From: Rozella allomycis CSF55
Taxonomy: Eukaryota > Rozellomycota
Reading direction: 5' to 3'
Assembly (NCBI GenBank): GCA_000442015.1
Contig: KE561071.1
Coordinates: 62,001 to 126,000 of the forward strand
DNA: 64,000 bases
Part shown: piece after piece, positions 9,103-14,859 of the stretch
Numbering within the stretch: the stretch's first letter is position 1
Layout of the letters: each line of letters begins with the position of its first letter
The notes under the pieces: model-generated
The model's input: the letters and a program-made list of their open reading frames with translations, nothing else
What the model was told of the DNA's origin: nothing
Database searches by the model: none
Translations under genes and position numbers: made by a program

Positions 9103-11112
9103 TTAATTTTCACCCATGACTATCGCCCAATTCGTAAATCCTTCCTCCAAATTTTTCACTTCAAAACAAAAAGTTCCAAAAAGACCTGCAATTACATTTC
9201 CTACTGTATCAGAAAATGAAATAACTGACAAATTCAAANTAGCCATACTCAAACGGTAATCAAAACCAACACCACCCTCTTCCACTGGTCTACACAGCGT
9301 GGGCATCCCAGAAACATCCTCAGCAATTGTAATAGAAAACGGATAAAATTTATGAATCATGAAATTAGCCAACTTTAAATAATTGACAGCTTCATCATCT
9401 ACAAACTCGCCAAAATACTCTCTGTAATCTCCACTAAAGCCAAAATTGATTCCATGATGATGATAAAGCATGGAAGTGACTCCATCGAATCTAAAGCCAT
9501 CAAATTGGTATACTTCCATATAAAAACGTAAATTTGAAAGTAAAAATCTCAAAACCTCCCAATGATTGTAGTTGAACAATCGACTGTCCCAAAGATCATG
9601 ACGACCTCGGCCGCCTTCATGAAAATAACAATGATCAGTTCCATCAAATTCATTTAGACCATCCAACACATTTTTAGACGAATGGGAATGCACAATATCA
9701 AGCAGAACATACAAGCCATACTCATGAGCAGTGTCAATCAATTCCATCAATTCTTCAGGAGTTCCAAAGCGAGATGAACATGCGTAAAAGTTTGTGACTT
9801 GGTAGCCAAAACTCGCATAATACGCATGTTCCATTATGGCCATCAATTGGATACAGTTGTACCCCTGCTTTTTTATTCTAGGCAAAACTTCTCTAGTGAA
9901 ATCATTATAAGTCGATATTCCAGCTTTGGGGGTGCAGATTCCTACATGCGCCTCATAAATTCTCAAACTTTGTGGTTTTGCAGGCCTTTTGTTCTTGAAA
10001 GAATATTTTTGTTCAGGATTCCAAAATATTCCTGATTCATCCGTCTTATATAAATTACCTTCAAATAAGTGGCTTTTCGATTGATCTTGAACAGCCCTGG
10101 TAATGTANTGACACACTCAGGAAAATGAAAAGGCTGTTAGATAAATAAACTTCAAATTTCAATGGAATCTATATTTTTCAAGTTCGTAATGCAGTCACAT
10201 GAATCCTAAAATCGAAGTTGAAGGCGTGAAAACCTGGCTGTTGAAGCTAAAATAAATAGCCAAGTCTAGAGCTTCCTTATCGGGACCTATAAATTTNCAT
10301 CCTCCCTGGCTAGTCGATCCATGGCGACTCTTGAAACAGCAGGTATTTATACCTGAAAAATAAGGTTCAAAATCTTATTTTAAAGTTAGTTTCGTCAAGA
10401 TTCAAAAGTTAAATTAATATCAATACATCAAAGATCCAAAAATGATATTAATACAATAATTAGTTTTCAATGACGAAGTTAGTTTAAGAATTTAATATGA
10501 AAAACGTGCGCAACGCCATGATAGTATTGTTTAGTTGATGGCAGTGTAAAAATAGAGTAAGAAAGACTACTGAAGAATGGACAACGGTTTATTTATCAAT
10601 TGTAAATTTATAGGTCCCGATAAGGNCGTTTGGTTTTATCATTGATATCTATAAAATATAATTGAATTTAATACCTTCACTTTCGAATTGTGTGGAATTG
10701 CACACTTGCCATTTTCGGCCGGTACGTTAATCTCCCAGACGCCAAAATCGTCTCTTTTCATTGGGTGGGACTCTCTATTCCAATTGTTTACGACAGTTAA
10801 GGATAACGAATTTTAAGTAATAATAATAGACAAAAAGGATATTAAAATCACCAATGAGGTATGCTCTTGTGACACCAGGTGCCCATTCGCGATAAATAAC
10901 GCTATTATCAGGCTGTACATTGAAACCATAATATTTATAACCTCTACTGAATTTGTCCAATCCATGACCATGTTGTTCTATTTTATGCACCCAGTCATTG
11001 AAAAAGTTTTGTCTGTAAACAGCGAATCAAAATATTACCTTCTTTCAAGAACTCCAGAGTGGGGCTTTAGATAAGGGTCTTGGCATACAACTTCCAACTC
11101 TACGGCTGTCAT
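9103..11112 (-). CDS. GBE1: glycogen branching enzyme (GH13), interrupted by assembly gaps
   Basis: The start at 11112 gives a leader with DPYLKPH, spliced (26-nt intron) to the carbohydrate-binding module ([27 protein letters not shown]). The GH13 barrel follows at 10107-9240: [49 protein letters not shown] with the nucleophile Asp, and [11 protein letters not shown] with the acid/base Glu. Four gaps cut it (9239, 10108, 10297, 10626). About 30 residues of the linker before YITRAVQD are not found. After GFDYRLSMA the gene jumps through the 9239 gap into ~45 residues (ending WAIVMGEN) that do not resemble the branching-enzyme C-terminus. The third catalytic Asp and the beta-sandwich domain are therefore missing here, probably through misassembly. 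An unusual intron is listed separately. Confidence 0.88.
10109..10625. other. non-coding contig pieces inside the branching-enzyme gene, bounded by inverted 22-mers
   Basis: No coding sequence is recognisable here. The 22 bp at 10275-10296 and at 10604-10625 are perfect reverse complements, and each abuts an N (10297, 10626). Part of 10128-10170 (ATAAACTTCAAA then ATGGAATCTATATTTTTCA) resembles 12821-12861, so a dispersed repeat is likely. The remainder is AT-rich with no long ORF. Its position inside a housekeeping gene suggests misplaced contigs. Confidence 0.55.
10786..10842 (-). other. candidate U12-type (AT-AC-like) intron in the branching-enzyme gene
   Basis: On the minus strand, after the codons for LIGDF, the sequence reads ATATCCTTTT, the minor-spliceosome 5' consensus. 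It then has TCCTTAAC (10803-10796), the U12 branch-point consensus, and reaches AAAC about 11 nt later. No GT-AG pair in this interval restores the conserved GDFNNWN reading. The AT-AC choice (57 nt) leads to a stop, while ending two bases earlier (AT-AA, 55 nt, 10788-10842) restores it exactly. It is about twice the length of the surrounding introns. Confidence 0.6.
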
Positions 11113-11153
11113 CTAGACTGTGGCTGAGGACAATTTGACAACTTTCCAAAACA

Positions 11154-11666
11154 ATGGACATGCCTAAAACGATCATTAAACAAATTTTAATATTTTNCTA
11201 TATTGATAGTTTAAATTCTACAGACGAACAGCTGGTTGAAACCCTTCAAATAGCTTTAGCTCAAGTAGAGTCCAGCCTAGAAACAGAGTCTACACATGTT
11301 TGTGACTTTATGCCAGATCTAATTAATCAAGCAAACGACTATCAAAAGCAAGTTCAAGTTGATTTGACTATTCTTCATTCTCTAAAATCGCACGTGGCCA
11401 GAATCGCCTATTGGCAGAGATATCATTCAACAGTTCTTGATATTTGCATCCAAAAGAACTTTTACGACACACTTATTGACCAGCTTATCCATATAATCAA
11501 TATTAAAAACAGCTTATCTCTGCTCGATGTCCACTCACAAACTGCCTTTGACGATCTAGTATTAATCAAACGCAAAACAATCCAAAAAGTCGCACACCAC
11601 ACATTCGTACAAGACCACTACCTCAACATGATCGAATTTCTTTTCCACGCAATAAAATCTAAATAA
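11154..11666 (+). CDS. unrecognised helical protein
   Basis: About 170 residues, predicted largely alpha-helical from its leucine/isoleucine spacing, with an N gap at 11197 close to the start. No signal peptide beyond a short hydrophobic patch at the gap, and no motif I can name. It starts 41 bp from the divergent branching-enzyme start codon, so both must share a very small promoter region. The reading frame upstream of the gap is uncertain; the frame from about 11200 to the stop at 11666 is continuous and has the codon use of its neighbours. Confidence 0.55.
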   Translation: MDMPKTIIKQILIFXYIDSLNSTDEQLVETLQIALAQVESSLETESTHVCDFMPDLINQANDYQKQVQVDLTILHSLKSHVARIAYWQRYHSTVLDICIQKNFYDTLIDQLIHIINIKNSLSLLDVHSQTAFDDLVLIKRKTIQKVAHHTFVQDHYLNMIEFLFHAIKSK

Positions 11667-11961: not shown

Positions 11962-12058
11962 TAGAAATGTCAGGAATGACATAAGAAATGATATAAGAAA
12001 CGACATAAGAAATGATATAAGAAACGACATAAGAAATGTAATAAGAAATGTAATGACA
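11962..12058. repeat. 12-bp tandem repeat array
   Basis: About seven imperfect copies of a 12-bp unit (GACATAAGAAAT alternating with GATATAAGAAAC) lie beside the gap at 11945. On the plus strand it would read as an IRND tetrapeptide repeat. On the minus strand it would sit downstream of a GTAAATG donor-like site after an ATG at 12085. Whether it is coding is unresolved. Confidence 0.75.
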
Positions 12059-12087: not shown

Positions 12088-12348
12088 ATGATATCCGAGA
12101 ATATAACAAATTCTCGGTATCTTAATTCTTTGGCCTATAGGGAAGAAACTGAAATTTTACCACTCCCCAATTTTGATGGGGAGAACCCACCGCAGTTTCC
12201 TGAAACTGTTGGTGAATTCTGGAGGTTGAACGCCAGAGATGTAACCTTTCTATTAAATTTCTATGGGATACCAAACAATGGTACCCTTGAGAAAAGAATT
12301 AGCAGGTTGGCTAGGCATTGCAGAGTGAACCGTCCTACTGTTGTCTAA
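12088..12348 (+). CDS. SAP-like repeat ORF (multicopy)
   Basis: An 86-residue ORF. The second half (ARDVTFLLNFYGIPNNGTLE then RISRLARHC) has the helix-turn-helix spacing and the Tyr-Gly-Ile-Pro-x-x-Gly turn of SAP-like motifs, which often bind DNA or RNA. A diverged copy of the same half lies just after the gap, at 12352-12476. The unit is therefore repeated, either in tandem within one gene or as a family. It is only 2 bp from an opposing ATG at 12085. Function unknown; the SAP resemblance is by pattern only. Confidence 0.4.
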   Translation: MISENITNSRYLNSLAYREETEILPLPNFDGENPPQFPETVGEFWRLNARDVTFLLNFYGIPNNGTLEKRISRLARHCRVNRPTVV

Positions 12349-12351
12349 AAN

Positions 12352-12481
12352 TTGAATGCCAGAGATGTAACCTTTCTATTAAATTTCTATGGAATACCGA
12401 ACAACGGGAAGGTTGAGAATAGAATTGACATGTTGGCTAGGCATTGCAGAGTGAACCGTCCTACTGTTGTCTAAAAATAAA
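12352..12481 (+). repeat. second, diverged copy of the SAP-like unit
   Basis: This matches about 12226-12350 along its length but differs at many positions (for example the NNGKVENRID stretch against NNGTLEKRIS), too many for simple allelic overlap. It therefore looks like a true paralogous copy and ends in the same PTVV-stop. Confidence 0.7.
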
Positions 12482-12939: not shown

Positions 12940-14706
12940 TTAATAAATGCTTATAGAATAAGAATCTCCGTTGGAATTGTGAATAGATGATGAAAAATTA
13001 GACGTTTCAAAGCACCACTCATACCAAACTCTAGTTCTATCGCACTTTCTCCATAGTGAAACATAACAAGTGCTTTGTGGACTAAGCATAAAAGGTTCTT
13101 TGGTAGGAAAGTACATGGGAAACCAACTGTACATATTGGTAGTTTCATCACCAGGCACTGTAGAAACGCTGATGGTATCATAAAGCAAGGAAGAAAAGTA
13201 GCCAGTAAAACCATGACATACAACATTATAATGTTTTTCATTCTTCATCTCAATCTTTGCATATCTAGAATGATCATTGTTGTTAACATTTGGATGTATA
13301 AAACTGAATACAGGGCGAGGTTTGCATAATGTCACAGCATTCCTGTAGCGAACAACATAAGGAATCTCCAGAGGATGTTCTCCTTTAGATCCAAAAGAGA
13401 GTGCACAAGCATTTTTGAATAATGTCACCGATGAAACAAGAGAAATGTACGATACACTATTGGCAGGAATGGAAACACTTTCTGAACTCATTAACTGAGA
13501 ACAGCCATCAAGGCATTCAGGAGAAAGTTCATTATCTCCAAAAGACCCCAAGAGTTCACTGACCAAGAAATCACATTTAGAATGACTGAAATTCCTCATG
13601 TCTCCTTCATAAACACTCACATTTTCATTCTTCCATTCATTTTCTTTCATAGTAAGCAACTTTACAACAGCATTCGGATTTTTATCCAAGGCCACAATTT
13701 CAACATCCACATTTGACGTTTTAGAAGCGGAAATCGCTCGATTTACCAACGGTCCTCTACCTGCACCTAAAACATAAATTCTTGCCGTTTTATTTGCATT
13801 CTTTAACTTCCAGTCATTTAAAGCTTTCGTAATAGCTTTTTCATATTGAATGTATTTGACTGGATCGGCTTCAAAAACAGAATAAGTCCCTGCGTCCAAG
13901 TTATCCTTCAAAGGCTGCAGTGGAATTTGAAGAACGTCGCAGTATTCATTAGCAGCTCTTTCAATCGCAGAAATATCCCTCGGTCTATTCAACAGTTGCA
14001 AAGATTCTACATGAACCTTAAAGTCTTCAACAGTTTCAGATTTAATAAATATCTTCAAATTCAATTCAAATGCTTTTGATACACAATTTCGATGTTCTGG
14101 AGAGAGCAAGGGGATATTTTTCTTGTTTAAAATAAATGCAGATTCCGGAATAAAAATAGAGTGCAAACTTTGACTAATCCATTTAGAAAAATCAGAATAT
14201 ATATCAGGCAATTCAAGCCCTACGACTATATTTCGGCTGTTTCCCACCTTGTTTGAAAATCGAAGCCATGATTGCCAGTGATCGGTCTTGACGATAAACA
14301 GGATAGTCGGAACTCTGCCCTGGCTATTTAGCAACAAATTCTTAACTGTACTAGCAAAAAAGTCACTCAAAGACTCTTGAAATGGAATACACAACAGGGG
14401 AATAGATAAATGACAAACATAACCAAACTGAAATAGGAATTCTCTTTCGCCTAAAAGCAGACTTTCAACATTTTCAGATGACAGTAATTCTATTGTACTT
14501 TTGCCTACCCTTAATCCCAACGATGACAAGTCAAGATTTTCATCCAAAACAGATAAGCAGGATGGTGAACGCATAGTATTTATATCATCTTCAAGATTGA
14601 ATGGAAGTAAACAGCAATCCAAACCCATATACCTAACCTCACTTATAAGTTCATCGCTATATCTGATGCCAACGTTATCAGGGAAAGAAATTCCAAGAAG
14701 AGACAT
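12940..14706 (-). CDS. PRMT5: protein arginine methyltransferase 5 (type II)
   Basis: 588 residues in a single exon. The start at 14706 (MSLLGISFPDN) is chosen because it aligns with the beginning of the PRMT5 TIM-barrel region; the frame is open for 33 more residues upstream. The catalytic half is unmistakable: PLKDNLDAGTYSVFE, which carries the Phe typical of symmetric methylation; the AdoMet site VLGAGRGPLV; the acidic loop ALDKNPNA; the double-E loop SELLGSFGDNELSPECLDG; and the beta-barrel signatures VCHGFTGYF, SWFPMYFP and VWYEW. It makes symmetric dimethylarginine on histones and Sm proteins. The N-terminal barrel is shorter than the human one and diverged. Confidence 0.97.
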   Translation of the reverse strand: MSLLGISFPDNVGIRYSDELISEVRYMGLDCCLLPFNLEDDINTMRSPSCLSVLDENLDLSSLGLRVGKSTIELLSSENVESLLLGEREFLFQFGYVCHLSIPLLCIPFQESLSDFFASTVKNLLLNSQGRVPTILFIVKTDHWQSWLRFSNKVGNSRNIVVGLELPDIYSDFSKWISQSLHSIFIPESAFILNKKNIPLLSPEHRNCVSKAFELNLKIFIKSETVEDFKVHVESLQLLNRPRDISAIERAANEYCDVLQIPLQPLKDNLDAGTYSVFEADPVKYIQYEKAITKALNDWKLKNANKTARIYVLGAGRGPLVNRAISASKTSNVDVEIVALDKNPNAVVKLLTMKENEWKNENVSVYEGDMRNFSHSKCDFLVSELLGSFGDNELSPECLDGCSQLMSSESVSIPANSVSYISLVSSVTLFKNACALSFGSKGEHPLEIPYVVRYRNAVTLCKPRPVFSFIHPNVNNNDHSRYAKIEMKNEKHYNVVCHGFTGYFSSLLYDTISVSTVPGDETTNMYSWFPMYFPTKEPFMLSPQSTCYVSLWRKCDRTRVWYEWCFETSNFSSSIHNSNGDSYSISIY

Positions 14707-14859
14707 TTTCAGAAATTTCTGACTGATTATTTCTAGAGAAAGAATATATACTAATTGAATTGAACATGGAGTTTTAAGTTGAGACTTTAAAAGACCAACT
14801 CCCACTCCACCTAATTGAAGTTTTCTCTTTTCTAAATTTTCAGATTAAAATTTCTTCAA

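Follow-up and report, generated by a model that had tools for sequence, protein, structure and literature searches.

A probable minor (U12-type) AT-AA intron in the glycogen branching-enzyme gene of Rozella allomycis and a genome-wide set of putative introns sharing its 5' splice site

Minor (U12-type) introns with AT-AA ends are a recognised rare variant of their class, and non-canonical ends, among which AT-AA is the commonest, account for about 3.8% of the conserved minor introns of animals and 4% of those of plants (PMC10639083). The introns with AT-AC, AT-AA, AT-AG and AT-AT ends have been described as one CENATAC-dependent class (PMC8280824). Among fungi, minor introns have been counted in Rhizophagus (205) and Basidiobolus (249) and are also present in Spizellomyces and some Neocallimastigomycetes, and the cited part of the same work gives no convincing ones for Ascomycota and Basidiomycota (PMC10639083). 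Microsporidia are placed among the groups without U12 splicing (PMC2846911), and their intron loss is dated after the split from Cryptomycota, with Rozella, the sister lineage of Microsporidia, being relatively intron-rich at 2.53 introns/kb (PMC8476143). No report of Rozella minor introns was found among the open-access papers listed, and Rozella is not mentioned in the text of PMC10639083, whose supplementary data may include it. The present analysis concerns a glycogen branching-enzyme gene on the minus strand of a 64-kb stretch of contig KE561071.1 of Rozella allomycis CSF55 (the window, meaning all of its 64,000 nucleotides, nt), for which a U12-type intron had been proposed from the letters alone (the original prediction). 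Rozella is an early-branching parasitic fungus, assigned taxonomically to Rozellomycota. The segment 10788-10842 is very probably a spliceosomal U12-type AT-AA intron, removed by a minor spliceosome that the organism would still encode, and, judged from its sequence, is best filed in the AT-AN class of such introns, in a lineage for which no report was found and as a member of a set whose ends and uniform 5' site look unusual. Two background statements of the original prediction need correction: the genome, called intron-shrunken there, is described as relatively intron-rich (density cited above), with adjoining major introns of 26 nt, and the loss of U12 introns from most fungi has to be read beside the several fungi outside Ascomycota and Basidiomycota known to keep them (PMC10639083).

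On the minus strand, the end of exon 2 (...GATTTTA, to 10843) is followed by the intron ATATCCTTTTTGTCTATTATTATTACTTAAAATTCGTTATCCTTAACTGTCGTAA and by the start of exon 3, ACAATTGG (Table 1). Both U12 motifs lie where they had been predicted, the 5' splice site ATATCCTTTTTGT at 10842-10830 and the branch site TCCTTAAC at 10803-10796; the first occurs once in the window, for a shuffle mean of 0.02, and the second, also in a single copy, is unremarkable alone (shuffle mean 1.81). The interval first given, 10786-10842, covers both motifs and corresponds to the 57-nt AT-AC version, the frame-keeping AT-AA intron being that of 55 nt. With 10842-10788 retained, the frame reads 22 residues and then meets a stop, and removal of the 55 nt gives a 26-residue junction stretch, including the conserved GDF/NNWN, with the intron in phase 1. 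The AT-AC end at 10786 in the U12 register (57 nt) was rejected, the frame being lost and running into a stop. The segment is taken as an intron because the AA end restores GDFNNWN, whereas the AC end in the same register meets a stop, just as had been proposed, and the frame and the ungapped alignments agree on this point. The spliced protein is ungapped at the junction in both printed alignments, with solved plant branching enzymes (ligdfnnwn versus LIGEFNNWN), and exons 2 and 3 joined give a CBM_48 match of 59.7 bits (Pfam). The features by which U12-type introns are recognised are present, namely an RTATCCTT 5' site, a TCCTTRAC-like branch site near the 3' end and recognised terminal dinucleotides.

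The interruption might also be no minor intron at all, being instead a major-spliceosome intron, an insertion or a gene-breaking assembly error, and the assembly does contain many single Ns, which interrupt this very gene at 9239, 10108 and 10626. The region from 10626 to 11197 holds no N between these two positions, the same 13-nt start with repair of the frame recurs in 14 further genes, and genes for U11 and 65K are present in the genome, all of which speaks against this explanation and leaves it hardly credible.

The minor-intron reading was followed through the genome, a fragmentary assembly of 9,970,177 bases in 213 contigs. The pattern RTATCCTTTTTG occurs at 33 sites versus 4 for the backward pattern, and the exact 13-mer ATATCCTTTTTGT at 21 (exact and one-mismatch copies together, 103 versus 51 backward). 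Sixteen of the 21 exact sites were accepted, representing 15 different introns with L043 and L044 as copies, and this number, obtained via one 5' site motif, is a lower bound. The accepted introns are 49-59 nt long (median 54) and lie in phase 1 (11), phase 2 (3) or phase 0 (1), and the unspliced reading meets a stop in all 15. Each 3' end was picked from AA, AC and AG dinucleotides on the basis of frame and homology, so that the protein agreement in 15/15 is by construction. Among the 14 introns other than that of the branching enzyme, 13 have a script-matched branch-like motif, which is weak in the kinase, and none is found in PEN-2. The printed alignment is ungapped across the junction in 9/15 introns (branching enzyme, CHMP1, cullin, syntaxin 6, PEN-2, PPCS, MTG1/YlqF GTPase, Bud20 and nucleotide-sugar dehydratase/epimerase); at the CHMP1 junction MSNMEKHLFNLKF is identical to CHMP1B 8v2q, and for the cullin gene cullin 4B and 3 give similar scores. 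In the protein kinase and XPG nuclease (XPG_N) genes, a Pfam match, given without a printed alignment, spans the junction. As separate observations, two copies of the syntaxin-6-like gene, each carrying the minor intron, lie 5.7 kb apart (L043, C191:545001; L044, C191:550701), as a recent duplication or an assembly duplication, and the PEN-2-like gene (L089; gamma-secretase subunit, 39.5 bits), unusual for a fungus, carries an AT-AC intron.

The ends assigned to the 15 introns are AT-AA in 9 and AT-AC in 6 (AA 7 and AC 4 among the 11 homology-backed introns, AA 5 and AC 4 among the 9 with a printed alignment), and no AG end was needed in any of them. The AT-AA intron of the branching enzyme appears to be part of a genome-wide AT-A[AC] class, and both the frame in this gene and the remaining accepted introns favour AT-AA over AT-AC within a U12-type reading, as predicted. 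The predominance in the Rozella set of AT-AA, an end seldom met in other organisms, would be new. When the junction is slid by 1-3 bases, the ends become mixed, with the protein kept in 12/15 introns at +1. At +2, where both cuts fall two bases later, the same segment could be a U12-type AT-AC intron (exon ...GATTTTAAT, intron ATCC...GTAAAC, exon AATTGG), which has an AC end and a branching-enzyme product of the same length and identical sequence, N being encoded by AAT instead of AAC; this register gives AC ends in 3/15 introns, its full set of ends being AT-AT 6, AT-AC 3, AT-AG 2, AT-GT 2, AT-GA 1 and AT-GG 1, and it keeps the protein in 9/15, in contrast to the chosen register with AT-AA 9 plus AT-AC 6 and, by construction, 15/15. 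The +2 cut is disfavoured over the whole set of 15 introns and was considered unlikely.

As to the components named in the original prediction as a check, the U11 small nuclear RNA (snRNA), a U12-like RNA and the 65K protein were found, and U4atac and U6atac were not. The U11 snRNA match is of full length and above the cut-off (78.1 bits, E 7.8e-14, C169:16954-17082), and the U12-like RNA is also matched at full length (36.4 bits, E 5.2e-5), with 0 of the 14 prokaryote control genomes matched in either case. In the U12-like RNA, AGUAAGGAAAA complements the branch site except for a bulged A, the stretch AGUAAGGA of this RNA being complementary to TCCTTAAC; the model's GCCUACUUUGC loop is present too, and AAUAUUUGGAG stands at the place expected for the Sm site. 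The gene for U11/U12-65K (RNPC3) lies on C173, where the human C-terminal RRM used as query (94 residues) is matched with 52% identity from residue 36 to residue 85, with 2 stops within the match; with the exons joined, the C-terminal RRM gives an RRM_1 match of 45.8 bits (Pfam), and the N-terminal RRM was recognised by eye. This gene is 98% identical over 83% of the query to ROZALSC1DRAFT_27864, partial (Rozella allomycis CSF55); the matches listed (the best 120 of 361) include the names RNPC3 and U11/U12-65K and, next after Rozella, come from Acaulospora, Polychytrium, Spizellomyces and Ambispora. In the mechanism proposed, U11 would pair with the 5' site (CCTTTTTGT) and U12 with TCCTTAAC, leaving the candidate branch A bulged, the 65K protein would bridge U11 and U12, and cleavage at the AA 9 nt past the branch would join GATTTTA to ACAATTGG and yield the conserved GDFNNWN.

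Several results weigh against an AT-AA intron served by such a spliceosome. The U12-like RNA scores under the Rfam cut-off of 53. No match to U4atac or U6atac was obtained at E <= 0.001 among the 48/537 and 46/494 first-look candidates scored, respectively, and the best U6atac-like place (L051, 18.9 bits) was rejected, the TTAGC core being absent; nor was the U11-48K CHHC finger (PF05253) matched with 1 candidate scored, its 25-position model being splittable by an intron. In the 14 introns measured, 6-9 nt separate the branch from the 3' end, which is short against the usual optimum of about 11-13 nt for U12-type introns. Four of the 15 introns lack homology across the junction and depend on the reading frame, namely those of two genes that are, by their motifs, putatively UBE2O-like and LSM12-like (the latter with more than one possible 3' end), of a leucine-rich-repeat protein, where the Pfam match begins at the junction, and of one gene of unknown family. 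The gapped motif search gave only 13 sites versus 9 backward, of which 3 were accepted, all with the 13-mer, and the +2 register gives the same protein in 9/15 introns, the branching enzyme included. The absences of U4atac, U6atac and U11-48K are weak because few candidates were scored, the assembly is fragmentary and the 14 control genomes are prokaryotes, hence without positive controls for U4atac and U6atac. The failure to find these two RNAs also agrees with a true minor intron in an organism whose minor spliceosome is incomplete, U4atac and U6atac having been lost, so that the major spliceosome now removes the intron, or removal is poor; the one 5' site common to the accepted introns, many of them within conserved genes, and the weak support for the absence itself (46-48 candidates scored per RNA search, in 213 contigs) make this improbable.

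Further candidates for U6atac were also rejected. With as many as 3 mismatches allowed, its core motif occurs at 3 sites versus 2 backward, with no Rfam match at E <= 1, and the weak matches at E <= 10 were taken as noise because 11 of the 14 prokaryote control genomes match as well. A U6 snRNA gene (L052, 1473-1581, 88.5 bits) surfaced as a weak match to the U6atac model.

The 5' splice site of the accepted introns extends beyond the motif searched for: T follows ATATCCTTTTTG in 15/15, though it is outside the RTATCCTTTTTG search pattern. Among the 57 ATATCCTTTTT sites (27 from the RTATCCTTTTTG search and the 30 of ATATCCTTTTTH), GT comes next in 16/16 accepted and in 5/41 others (Fisher p 3.5e-10, which is a guide only, the split being made partly by eye with L043 and L044 counted separately). 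The DNA upstream of the Rfam-defined U11 start reads TTACAAAAAGGGC, and a U11 with its start at ACAAAAAGG would be able to form pairs with CCTTTTTGT; the calculated energy of the duplex with the 5' site then goes from -6.7 to -10.3 kcal/mol. Since two matching upstream bases are expected by chance in about 6% of cases (with assumed base frequencies), this extended pairing is a lead, not proof. Both this pairing and the same 13-nt 5' site in every accepted intron, in searches built on the 13-mer, would likewise be new. As a tentative proposal, somewhat less likely than not, the minor spliceosome may have been transformed, with all its introns A-type, AT-AA the main end and the 13-mer fixed through a U11 whose first base lies two positions further upstream (ACAAAAAGG) and which pairs with +5 to +13 of the intron, and with U4atac and U6atac replaced or unrecognisable to current models.

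The limits of the set are given by the sites left out, 17 of the 33 RTATCCTTTTTG sites. Five have the 13-mer with an unconvincing frame repair (L016, L024, L028, L040 and L045), the RasGAP-like gene of L024 being the most doubtful; in six the next base is not T (L021, L023, L025, L030, L037 and L039), L023 having been left out by eye despite an intron-like automatic score of 7.0; and six are GTATCC sites (L017, L022, L033-L036). None of the 6 GTATCCTTTTTG sites was accepted, GT introns with other 5' sites being outside the search. An automatic scan of 65 sites found a frame-open solution at 29, comprising 13 of the 15 accepted introns (scores 5.5-8) and 16 others (3.7-7.0); it misses L004 (= L019) and L089, and nothing but homology sets the kinase intron L026 (5.5) apart from the non-accepted sites. 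The pattern ATATCCTTTTTH occurs at 30 sites versus 15 backward, of which 0 were accepted and 11 have a frame-open solution with a branch score of at most 6.3; this two-fold excess, unexplained, could hide introns. The one-mismatch 13-mers are about twice as many as in the backward control, and none was accepted and no clear intron seen among the 20 of 82 that were hand-picked and read. Introns with other 5' sites were detectable only via the gapped search and these 20 one-mismatch sites, and the term "fixed 13-mer", which describes the introns found, may be too strict.

Table 1. Features of the branching-enzyme gene (positions in the window)
Feature	Position	Strand	Remarks
U12-type (minor) intron, AT-AA ends, phase 1 (probable)	10788..10842	-	55 nt; glycogen branching-enzyme gene
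5' splice site ATATCCTTTTTGT	10830..10842	-	13 nt, identical in 15/15 accepted introns (motif used as search seed)
Branch site TCCTTAAC	10796..10803	-	putative branch A at 10797 (9 nt from the intron 3' end)
3' splice site dinucleotide AA	10788..10789	-	from the reading frame; register compared over the intron set
Exon 1	11039..11112	-	ATG at 11112 (MTAVELEVV...)
GT-AG major intron	11013..11038	-	26 nt; sequence reading
Exon 2, ...TRAYLIGDF	10843..11012	-	reading and alignment
Exon 3	10675..10787	-	reading and alignment
GT-AG major intron	10649..10674	-	26 nt; sequence reading
Exon 4, beginning only	10627..10648	-	broken off by N at 10626
Catalytic part, YITRAVQ...GFDYRLSMA	9240..10107	-	bounded by single Ns at 9239 and 10108

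The closest named relatives of the branching-enzyme query are from Gigaspora and a chytrid (66-67%), and no Rozella record is present, among the matches listed (the best 120 of 7,996). The major introns read are very uniform, with 26 nt in the branching enzyme (two) and in the 65K gene (three, by eye) and 27 nt in CHMP1 (loci including L049), roughly half the 49-59 nt of the minor introns. Single Ns stand at 9239, 10108, 10297, 10626, 11197, 11945, 12351, 12482 and 12818, with an abrupt change of reading at several; they look like joints between contigs, three of which cut the branching-enzyme gene. One sequence (ccttatcgggacctataaattt) recurs in inverted orientation at 10275-10296 and 10604-10625, with an N at the end of each copy, and the stretches at about 12226-12350 and 12352-12475 are similar copies of one sequence flanking an N, the second having ttgaatgccagagatgtaacctttctattaaatttctatgg... 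A tandem repeat with a unit of about 24 bases (cataagaaatgatataagaaacga) was seen by eye at about 11980-12055. The neighbouring PRMT5-like gene (12940-14844, minus strand) is 100% identical over 68% of the query to "Skb1 methyltransferase, partial" of Rozella allomycis CSF55.

If the minor spliceosome works in Rozella, its loss in the line of Microsporidia would date after the split of the two. With its compactness, its small number of minor introns, a single prevailing 5' site and a predominance of AT-AA ends, such a genome would offer a natural experiment on the recognition of the 5' site by U11 and on what determines the final nucleotide of minor introns. Compared with the U12-type introns of animals, plants and some fungi (PMC10639083), the Rozella introns have the same RTATCCTT, a TCCTTRAC-like branch near the 3' end and few cases of phase 0; in most species GT-AG predominates among the minor introns, in contrast to the Rozella set, with AT-AA assigned to 9/15 and a spacing of 6-9 nt. 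The human A-type (AT-AN) introns likewise group AT-AC and AT-AA as one class (PMC8280824); they are a minority of human minor introns, whereas all accepted Rozella introns are A-type. Blastocystis shares short minor introns (median 39 bp versus 54 in Rozella) and an enrichment of AT starts (77% AT-AC), and differs in being a stramenopile, in having AT-AC, not AT-AA, and in 49% phase 0 versus 1/15 (PMC10639083). The number of introns in Rozella, 15 as a lower bound from one 5' site motif, stands against the 205 of Rhizophagus and 249 of Basidiobolus, which, with Spizellomyces, are likewise fungi outside Ascomycota and Basidiomycota keeping minor introns (PMC10639083), and, as in the minor spliceosome of animals, plants and some fungi, U11, a U12-like RNA and 65K are found in the Rozella genome.
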